Origin: a virus
Length of the DNA: 30,267 bases
Strand: one strand, 5' to 3'
Virus record (IMG/VR): IMGVR_UViG_3300050821_008022
Location: 1 to 30,267 of that record
This document shows, piece by piece, positions 12,003 to 22,797 of this stretch. How positions within the stretch are numbered: position 1 is the stretch's first letter; the number at the start of each line of letters is the position of its first letter. The notes below the pieces were generated by a model that saw nothing but the letters and a program-made list of their open reading frames with translations, did no database searches and was not told where the DNA came from. A program made the position numbers and the translations under genes.

Positions 12003-13037
12003 ATGTCTGCTAAATTTTTCCCAAAAGAAGCTAAATTCGAGAAAAAATCTCAAGTCGCACCCAACGCCATCGTATTTCATAGACAACTTTCTGATGCTGG
12101 CAAGCTTCTTTTACTAGCTCTGAATGGAATCGCAACGTGCACTTATACTTGGACTGTCATTCAATCCGACATTCAGAAAAGAATGGGGTGGGGAAGGGAT
12201 AAAATGAGGGGAGCCGTGCACGAATGCATAAAGCACGGTTACATGAAAATAAAGCAAAACAGATTAGTTCATTCACAAGACCCTGAGAATAAGTGGCAGA
12301 AGAAAGGACAATTTGCCCATAACGAATTTGAATTCGATATGGAACCCAGCTATCTCAATGAAAATCAACAAGATGCAGAAAAGTGCCCCCACAATGAATG
12401 TCAGCCGACGCCTGATTTTCCGTCGCCGGATGTCCCGTCGACGGAAAATCAGTCGTCGGAAAACAAGGCACTACCAAGTACTAGGGATTTACCTTGTATT
12501 GGAGAACAAACAAACAGCGATGAGGCGGAGCCTGTTGTTGTTATTCCATCATATGAAGAAGATGAAGAAGACCAAAAGCGTGATATTCTCGAAGATATTG
12601 GACTTCCCGAAAATTTAATGCCTTCCTGCCTCTGCCTTTCGCTTTCGCATATTAAGGATGCTGTGGCTGCTTTTGAACAATACAAGGACAAGAAGGCCGT
12701 AAAGGGTGAGATTGTAGAGAATCCAATAGGGATGCTTAGACGTGCGTTGATGAGCGGTTGGAAGCCTAACATTACCAAAGAAGATCTTCAGAACATCAAG
12801 AACCAAAAAGCTAAACGAGAATTGGATGCTTTTCAGAAAAATAAGCAATTTGCAGTCAAATTGGCTCAAGAAAACAGAGCTTTTTTCACAAATTCATTCT
12901 GTTTGGACACTGAAAAACATGAAAATTGCGTAATTTTGAAGTATGCTTCAAGCTTTATGCCACTGCCATATAACGAAGAAGGTTTCATGGAAATTTTGGA
13001 ATACTATATAGAAAACAACAAAAGAGATAAACCATGA
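12003..13037 (+). CDS. Winged-helix replication-initiator-like protein
   Basis: A 344-residue protein. Residues 20-85 (FHRQLSDAGKLLLLALNGIA, then TWTVIQSDIQKRMGWGRDKM, then GAVHECIKHGYMKI) form a winged helix-turn-helix of the kind found at the N-terminus of phage and plasmid replication proteins. A long acidic and serine/proline-rich linker follows (about 115-205, with EEDEEDQKRDILEDIG). The C-terminal part (about 210-270) has GMLRRALMSGW, similar to the segment repeated in DnaD/O-type helicase-loader regions. No helicase or primase motif is seen. Its RBS is buried in the hairpin at 11974-11998. ATGA overlap with the next gene. Confidence 0.6.
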   Translation: MSAKFFPKEAKFEKKSQVAPNAIVFHRQLSDAGKLLLLALNGIATCTYTWTVIQSDIQKRMGWGRDKMRGAVHECIKHGYMKIKQNRLVHSQDPENKWQKKGQFAHNEFEFDMEPSYLNENQQDAEKCPHNECQPTPDFPSPDVPSTENQSSENKALPSTRDLPCIGEQTNSDEAEPVVVIPSYEEDEEDQKRDILEDIGLPENLMPSCLCLSLSHIKDAVAAFEQYKDKKAVKGEIVENPIGMLRRALMSGWKPNITKEDLQNIKNQKAKRELDAFQKNKQFAVKLAQENRAFFTNSFCLDTEKHENCVILKYASSFMPLPYNEEGFMEILEYYIENNKRDKP

Positions 13038-21092: not shown

Positions 21093-21277
21093 TATTTCTT
21101 CTCCTCAAAATTTTCTTCAATTAATTTGCCTTCGATATCAAAAAAAACATCTCCATTGTATGAATCAATAACTTTACATGTAAAATTTGGATAATCATAA
21201 CATTCTTCAGTATCAGATCCTGATGTTAAAAAAGTATGAAGTTTTGACCATTCATTTTTTGTGCATTCGATTTTCAT
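21092..21277 (-). CDS. Small acidic protein (61 aa)
   Basis: A 61-residue protein whose ATG overlaps the stop of the upstream 86-residue gene by one base. It is acidic (DTEECYDYPNF, then FDIEGKLIEENFEEKK) with three cysteines in the first 35 residues. No family recognised and no signal sequence. Coupling on both sides supports it as a real gene. Confidence 0.5.
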   Translation of the reverse strand: MKIECTKNEWSKLHTFLTSGSDTEECYDYPNFTCKVIDSYNGDVFFDIEGKLIEENFEEKK

Positions 21278-21537
21278 TATTTTTTGTCCTTGTAAAATTT
21301 TTCTAAAAGATCATTCCATTTTTTATTGCTGCTCTCGTTTAATTCGCAGAACATTTTGTACAGTGTATCGATTCTAGAGGCGTGTCCGTCTAATCTTGAT
21401 CCTAAAGATTTTAGATCAGATCTAATGGAATTTACGTCTCCATCTAGTTTGTTTACCGACCATACGATCAGCGTTGCCATTGCTGCTATTAATGCTATGT
21501 TTACTCCGACTATTGTCGAAACTTGAATCCAATCCAT
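21277..21537 (-). CDS. Membrane-anchored coiled-coil protein (86 aa), holin-like layout
   Basis: An 86-residue protein with one N-terminal transmembrane helix (about residues 6-28, VSTIVGVNIALIAAMATLIV) followed by a coiled coil (NKLDGDVNSIRSDLKSLGSR, LDGHASRIDTLYKMF) and a lysine-rich end. This layout resembles some phage holin or haemolysin XhlA-like proteins, though the usual order there is coiled coil first. It starts after AAGGAGAGAAAAA and leads the leftward operon at 21537-19672. A role in lysis or exclusion is inferred only. Confidence 0.5.
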   Translation of the reverse strand: MDWIQVSTIVGVNIALIAAMATLIVWSVNKLDGDVNSIRSDLKSLGSRLDGHASRIDTLYKMFCELNESSNKKWNDLLEKFYKDKK

Positions 21538-21550
21538 TTTTTCTCTCCTT

Positions 21551-21596
21551 TTATGGGACGTTATGGGATATATCCCACAAGTTTTGCTGCTATAAT
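21551..21596. promoter_or_regulatory. Palindromic operator next to an extended -10 promoter
   Basis: A 14-bp perfect palindrome TGGGATATATCCCA (21564-21577) is preceded by a direct repeat of its half-site (TTATGGGA at 21551 and 21561). On the + strand, 13 nt after the palindrome, is TGCTATAAT (21588-21596), an extended -10 with no -35 consensus. The leftward gene at 21537 starts just beyond the repeats, so one bound regulator could act on both directions. Confidence 0.6.
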
Positions 21597-21602
21597 AAAT
21601 CG

Positions 21603-21709
21603 GTTTTGAAGTGATTTCTTTCGAAACCCCTTTTCAAAACCTGCTCATAAATATCCTAAAAACCATTTGAAAAAGGTATTTCTTTCGAAATACCCTTTTC
21701 TGGTTTTTT
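21603..21709 (+). ncRNA. Candidate small RNA of about 105 nt
   Basis: Predicted from the extended -10 at 21588-21596 (start near 21603) to the T-run ending about 21709. It would begin with a 9-bp stem GGTTTTGAA (21602-21610) with TTCAAAACC (21633-21641) and end in a long terminator hairpin, AAAAACCA (21658-21665) pairing TGGTTTTT (21701-21708) around GGTATTTC/GAAATACC (21675-21694). Both hairpins contain TTTCTTTCGAAA. No ORF of note fits inside. It faces the DUF932 gene, whose transcript it meets end to end. Confidence 0.5.
21657..21709. terminator. Bidirectional terminator after the DUF932 gene
   Basis: The core stem GGTATTTC (21675-21682) with GAAATACC (21687-21694) has a 4-nt loop. Leftward it is followed by TTTTTC; rightward by CTTTTCTGG and nine T's. 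It ends the leftward DUF932 transcript, whose stop codon starts at 21712, and would also end the candidate rightward RNA. Confidence 0.75.
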
Positions 21710-22492
21710 TTACCTTGCACTTAATTGTGCCATTTTTTCTGTCAAAGTCCAGAGTGCGGTGTTCAGTCTAACATTTTCTCCGACCGAATTTACAGCTCTA
21801 GTTTTCATTCTGCTTCCTGCCTCTGTCTTATAGCGGATACCCCCTCTTACGATATTTTCTTGAACTACGTTAAAGGCTGTCCAGAGATCTGTGTTTTGAT
21901 CCGCTGTGCGCCTGGGTGTCAAGATCTGATCGGGCGTTACAGGAAACTCCTCGCCGTCCCATTTTAACGCCATAGCTGATTGAGCGTAGGCAACTGCCTC
22001 TTCCCTCTTTAGCTCGATTCCTTTCCATTCTACGGCCTTTTCTACGCTGATAGGAACAATCTCAATCAGGTCATTGGCTGCCTCTACGACACGATTCACT
22101 ACATCGCCCTGGTGGCGAACTCGGCGGCAAAATGTCTCGGCTCCAGCGATAAGGCCATTACCGCATACGATCCGGAAAACTCCAGCCCTGAGCTGATAAC
22201 TGGTCGTTCCATCATGACTGTTAACTAGCACAATCTCAGGGATCACGCCGACTTTCTCTAAAGCCGATTCATGTCGGAAGCGCATGATGTGTTTAACGAA
22301 GCTCTCGCGCCCGTCGATCCGTGTCCTTGATTGGGTTGCCATCACTGGCCTGAATCCTGAATTGCCTAGGCCTCGCACAACGTCGATCGTAGGGATGAAG
22401 CCGTAACGCTGGCTTACATGCTCCGATCCGCCTGCTGCGAATATGCTAGGTACTCGGCGGGCTAATTCTATTTCATTTAAATATGCTGTCAT
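21710..22492 (-). CDS. DUF932 phage/plasmid-like protein
   Basis: A 260-residue protein matching the DUF932 phage/plasmid-like family: SQRYGFIPTIDVVRGLGNSG, FRPVMATQSRTRIDGRESFV, KHIMRFRHE, then LVNSHDGTTSYQLRAGVFRI, VCGNGLIAG. The function of this family is not established; it is common on phages and plasmids. The start at 22492 follows CAAGGAGTTTACC, and the longer frame to 22603 runs through the hairpin and the preceding gene. The leftward promoter at 22770-22797 drives the 60-residue gene and this one. Confidence 0.8.
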   Translation of the reverse strand: MTAYLNEIELARRVPSIFAAGGSEHVSQRYGFIPTIDVVRGLGNSGFRPVMATQSRTRIDGRESFVKHIMRFRHESALEKVGVIPEIVLVNSHDGTTSYQLRAGVFRIVCGNGLIAGAETFCRRVRHQGDVVNRVVEAANDLIEIVPISVEKAVEWKGIELKREEAVAYAQSAMALKWDGEEFPVTPDQILTPRRTADQNTDLWTAFNVVQENIVRGGIRYKTEAGSRMKTRAVNSVGENVRLNTALWTLTEKMAQLSAR

Positions 22493-22766: not shown

Positions 22767-22797
22767 TAAATATTAACAAAATTCTGTTTTTTCTCAA
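22767..22797 (-). promoter_or_regulatory. Leftward promoter with operator copy 3 of the 23-bp element
   Basis: Read leftward: -35 TTGAGA (22797-22792), 16-nt spacer, -10 TAATAT (22775-22770). The 23-bp element is 22767-22789, identical in 23 positions to copy 1, and its palindrome AACAAAATTCTGTT lies at 22775-22788. A TCTCAAA/TTTGAGA inverted repeat places another TTGAGA (22809-22814) facing rightward, which may be the -35 of the DUF1064 operon with TATGAT at 22834 (19-nt spacing). Confidence 0.7.

Follow-up and report, generated by a model that had tools for sequence, protein, structure and literature searches.

Intrinsic (rho-independent) terminators are recognized by a stable hairpin directly 3' of a gene and a U-tract 3' of the stem, and phage antisense small RNAs by a promoter-like and a terminator-like signal that share a strand and enclose no ORF. 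The self-cleaving ribozyme Twister-P5 (RF02684) joins this comparison because it is found in relatives of the locus described here. A literature search on twister ribozymes, phages and DUF932 yielded, among the matches listed, no paper that joins the ribozyme and this protein family, and the listed papers that name DUF932 are, by title, genome surveys or unrelated. The locus is a gap between two genes, at positions 21538–21709 of a 30,267-base virus record (the whole record is hereafter called the window). An earlier note had read this gap as a candidate phage small RNA with a palindromic operator and a bidirectional terminator. All of the elements it described are present where it had placed them, but we favor a different reading, to which we give a probability of about 0.72: the gap is an unremarkable 3'-end region between two cistrons of a minus-strand operon, in which one hairpin, H1, ends the message of the DUF932 gene.

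The Virus and Its Relatives

The closest relatives of the window are two viral loci, L014 and L016 (terminase 81% and 71% identical, respectively; portal protein 83% in both). Over positions 101–30116, compared with loci L146/L147, about 20 proteins match a block of phage genes on the "plasmid" NZ_LK031773 of Criblamydia sequanensis CRIB-18 in largely collinear order, with identities of 69% for TerL, 63% for the portal protein and about 40–64% for tail and baseplate genes. A plasmid of Protochlamydia naegleriophila encodes a DUF932 protein 50% identical to that of the window. We regard the virus as a probable tailed phage or phage-plasmid of Chlamydiota, its host probably being a chlamydia of amoebae; the presence of a group of phage genes on such plasmids has been mentioned previously (PMC7846284).

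The predicted fold of the DUF932 protein, a sheet followed by a long helix, is a confident model (pLDDT 93.5) with no clear match in the PDB; several PDB entries pointed to a RAD52-like identity, too weakly to be used. Elsewhere in the window, positions 12405–12469 hold an imperfect long inverted repeat rich in CGACG/CCGTCG, within a replication-initiator-like ORF (12003–13037).

Layout of the Gap

The genes around the gap form a minus-strand block that runs from 22730 down to 19672, and the gap separates the DUF932 gene from an 86-aa membrane-type gene for which a family search gave no match (Table 1). The earlier description of the neighbors as facing away or converging holds only when viewed from the plus strand, as both flanking genes lie on the minus strand and are co-directional. 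Read along that strand, the order is the DUF932 stop codon, H1, a second hairpin (H2), a palindrome (H3), the Shine-Dalgarno sequence AGGAGAG and the ATG of the 86-aa gene, with H3 immediately upstream of the Shine-Dalgarno sequence. The T8 run beside H1 extends into the triplet complementary to the DUF932 stop codon. The best promoter-like site of the block has the second-highest promoter score in the whole window.

Table 1. Features of the gap at 21538–21709 and of the genes around it.
Feature	Position	Strand	Basis or remark
DUF932 gene (PF06067), upstream cistron	21710–22492	−	Pfam E 6.9e-40, PHROG 12094
Complement of DUF932 stop codon	21710–21712	− (gene)	
H1, best read as DUF932 3'-end/terminator hairpin	21660–21705	−	14-bp inner stem, C(GAAA)G loop
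T8 run, makes H1 terminator-like on plus too	21704–21711	+	Sequence, scan
H2, second hairpin	21602–21641	−	9-bp outer stem and inner 6-bp stem, C(GAAA)G loop
Extended −10-like TGCTATAAT without −35, antisense to operon	21588–21596	+	
H3, palindrome TTATGGGATATATCCCACAA	21561–21580		DNA operator or weak minus-leader hairpin
Shine-Dalgarno AGGAGAG of downstream gene	21543–21549	−	Sequence
86-aa downstream gene (MDWIQ...)	21277–21537	−	Membrane segment and coiled coil judged from sequence
Best promoter-like site of minus block	22770–22797	−	TTGAGA-16-TAATAT, TG ahead

Hairpins H1 and H2

Both hairpins are clearly non-random, with z scores against chance of −7.8 (minus strand) and −6.2 (plus strand) for H1 and of −3.9 and −3.0 for H2. 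On the minus strand H1 folds at −20.3 kcal/mol and H2 at −15.7, vs. −15.3 and −11.5 on the plus strand; they are more stable on the minus strand because one G-U pair in each becomes an A·C mismatch on the other. The loops show the same preference: the inner stems of both are closed by C(GAAA)G, a GNRA loop, on the minus strand, and by a UUUC loop on the plus strand.

The component stems proposed earlier can be read directly, namely the 9-bp stem GGTTTTGAA/TTCAAAACC (21602–21610 and 21633–21641) and the longer hairpin followed by its T8 run. A partial repeat of 26 nt, 81% identical, joins the two hairpins, and H2 has the appearance of an incomplete copy of H1. The core TTTCTTTCGAAA, in which the earlier note saw a duplicated or constrained loop, is indeed common to both, but since both inner stems are capped by C(GAAA)G it consists mostly of closing pairs and the tetraloop.

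The terminator half of the original proposal stands. In a terminator scan H1 is terminator-like on both strands, with 14 pairs and a T-rich tail on the minus strand and 8 pairs and a tail on the plus strand. It is stable and comes directly behind the DUF932 stop codon, and on the minus strand the GGGTATTTC/GAAATACC stem is followed by a T5 tract, a weaker tail than a run of seven or eight; a second T run and an outer AACCA/TGGTT stem complete its flanks. Because it adjoins the stop codon and carries the T5, H1 is best read as the 3'-end or terminator hairpin of DUF932, and the T8 on the opposite strand makes it potentially bidirectional, so that it may stop antisense transcripts as well.

A Hairpin Follows DUF932 Genes in Related and Distant Loci

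DUF932 relatives were gathered from viral contigs, genomes and part of the matching plasmid and phage records, and one threshold was applied to all genes, a strong hairpin being one with a score of at least 20 and no more than 60 nt from the stop codon. Such a hairpin follows 61 of the 77 DUF932 genes vs. 119 of 1220 control genes from those loci (79% vs. 10%), where the controls are mechanically chosen ORFs and the DUF932 counts are not fully independent, since the loci are related. The median offset from the stop codon is 8 nt. When the DNA downstream of DUF932 was dinucleotide-shuffled, 3.5% of sequences had a strong hairpin, and the six other gene families with at least eight members in these loci ranged from 0 to 12%. 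In an additional sample drawn from plasmids, chromosomes and jumbo phages, a hairpin follows 21 of 27 DUF932 genes, E. coli plasmid NR1 included. The sequences of these hairpins vary widely, so it is position and fold that persist after DUF932; even in the gaps of L014 and L016 the hairpin sequences differ from those of the window. Those two gaps, otherwise different from each other, have in common a nearly identical element of about 55 nt (approximately 10840–10895 in L014, and the equivalent stretch of L016) with the hairpin GTGTTGAACAAATAGGGTATTTGTTCAACAC; the core of this element, the second hairpin, was found in IMG/VR only in those two contigs.

Among the relatives, GNRA and UNCG loops fall on the sense strand rather than the other in a ratio of 13:2, while a fair test of the energies gave a weak bias (28:15, p = 0.07). 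On the Protochlamydia naegleriophila plasmid, the DUF932 homologue is followed at the equivalent site by a classic terminator, GCCCCTCCAGAGGGGCTTTTTT. In jumbo phages, the hairpin contains TTGACA, spaced as in a promoter from TATACT or a hexamer like it, and looks as if it overlaps the next promoter. A U-tract accompanies only 9 of the 61 hairpins, and "terminator" is therefore unproven for the whole family; the enrichment may reflect termination, message stability or something else. The pattern is apparently widespread and so far undescribed.

Twister Ribozymes at the Same Site

In 8 of 50 phage records, the hairpin directly after the DUF932 stop codon is the P1 helix of a Twister-P5 ribozyme; seven of the eight score above the Rfam cut-off, and L078 falls below it. 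In these phages the motif UU^AAUGCG sits 27–38 nt past the stop codon, and, judging by its homology to the cleavage site known from twisters, we take it to be the point of cleavage. Cleavage there would leave the DUF932 mRNA with a hairpin as its 3' end, and the ribozyme would be, in these eight phages, another way of ending the DUF932 message. The ribozyme is not specific to DUF932, since with a tighter search pattern twister-like copies turned up behind other phage genes too; a second Twister-P5 in L092 (3079–3153) follows the stop codon of a 102-aa gene two cistrons beyond DUF932. The matches listed for a looser pattern were expected, given the length of that pattern, to be mostly chance, and their loci were used solely to check for DUF932 genes. 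When the gap, the close loci and 40 other DUF932 3' regions were searched with Rfam, only twister in one subgroup of loci and one tRNA elsewhere rose above the cut-off.

Alternative Readings of the Gap

The plus-strand small RNA would be about 107 nt long (21603–21709), starting from the extended −10 under control of the palindromic operator and ending at H1 and its T8 run; its antisense target would be the 86-aa gene's leader, or it would act at some other site. Its upstream signals can be read directly: a perfect 14-nt palindrome, TGGGATATATCCCA, at 21564–21577, with the half-site TATGGGA at 21552 and again at 21562, and, with its TATAAT 13 nt past the palindrome, TGCTATAAT, a full extended −10 match and the sole one in the window. 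Shuffles of the gap alone make both appear unusual (P = 0.025 for the palindrome, 0.0035 for the −10), but for the window as a whole they are at the level of chance, with two 14-nt palindromes found vs. 2.1 expected and one TGNTATAAT vs. 1.1. There is no −35 hexamer: TATATC is the best partner that the TATAAT has, and by promoter score this site comes 171st in the window. Of 76 homologous gaps, only that of the window contains a perfect antisense extended −10; the other 75 lack it, among them the gaps of the close relatives L014 and L016. At the sensitivity used, a search of the gap DNA against phage records gave no match and the exact H1 and palindrome/promoter-junction patterns had no copies in IMG/VR, and Rfam returned no family for the gap at gathering score. 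With stems and loops that favor the opposite strand as well, we consider a small RNA here quite improbable. The earlier note had itself named conservation owed fully to terminator function for the DUF932 gene as telling against its proposal, and the outcome comes near to this, in that conservation extends only to the placement of a hairpin behind DUF932.

H3, ahead of the next Shine-Dalgarno sequence, may serve in the DNA as an operator or in the RNA as a weak leader hairpin. It is conceivable, though unlikely, that H2 and H3 form a cis-acting leader, or that H3 is the operator of a promoter near 21592–21597 (TATTAT), in either case controlling the 86-aa gene. A palindrome with a repeated half-site adjoining the Shine-Dalgarno sequence is suggestive, as is the presence of multiple hairpins ahead of the next start codon in several relatives (L014 and L021), yet the palindrome count is no higher than chance for the window, the minus-strand promoter score is low, and leader sequences are not conserved. 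Since eight relatives carry Twister-P5 at exactly this site, the gap could also be imagined as an unrecognized or degenerate self-cleaving ribozyme. This is very improbable: the gap does not match RF02684 (threshold 37.6 bits), it gives no ribozyme match even at an E value of 5, and the 40 other DUF932 3' regions are without a match at 0.5.

A Model for the DUF932 Message and Its Implications

In the reading we prefer, with H1 at the end of the DUF932 message, the promoter at 22797–22770 probably drives the minus-strand operon. Past the DUF932 stop codon the RNA would fold into H1, a 14-bp hairpin capped by GAAA and followed by T5, which may end the message, or may end it in part and then protect it. 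The sequences themselves show the gene order, the hairpins with their strand preference, and the conserved placement of a hairpin behind DUF932; from these we infer termination at H1 and stabilization of the DUF932 mRNA by its 3' hairpin. In RNA that reads through, H2 and H3 would become part of the leader that precedes the Shine-Dalgarno sequence of the 86-aa gene, and H1 might also stop antisense transcripts by way of the T8 on the other strand. The promoter scan found no good minus-strand promoter within the gap for the downstream genes, and efficient termination would therefore leave them poorly expressed.

A broader and more tentative proposal, which we hold at somewhat less than even odds, is that DUF932 genes, whether on phages, plasmids or chromosomes, are selected to end their mRNA in a hairpin a few nucleotides past the stop codon, cut off from downstream cistrons, with interchangeable devices for doing so: a classical terminator, a hairpin without U-tract, a terminator overlapping the next promoter (as in jumbo phages), or Twister-P5. 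The DUF932 protein or its dosage possibly depends on the 3' hairpin.

For the window itself, these results avert a false small-RNA annotation. They also give a strong positional RNA signature (79% vs. 10%) to DUF932, a very common family of unknown function, and present a case in which a twister ribozyme has naturally taken the place of a terminator-like hairpin at the same site. This case suggests something concrete that a ribozyme could do for bacterial viruses, namely form the 3' end of one cistron. The hairpin 3' of DUF932 merits a separate, family-wide study.

Comparison with Known Elements

The gap resembles phage antisense small RNAs in that signals of both kinds, promoter-like and terminator-like, lie on one strand and no ORF intervenes, but differs in its lack of conservation and of a −35 hexamer and in structures that favor the other strand. 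Twister-P5 occupies the equivalent site directly after DUF932 in eight related phages, whereas the window lacks the conserved twister nucleotides. From intrinsic terminators H1 differs in its A/T-rich stem, its outer stem and 3-nt bulge, its T5 in place of a longer run, and its position inside a co-directional gene block; it shares with them a hairpin just past the stop codon, a U-rich tail and an A-rich 5' flank.
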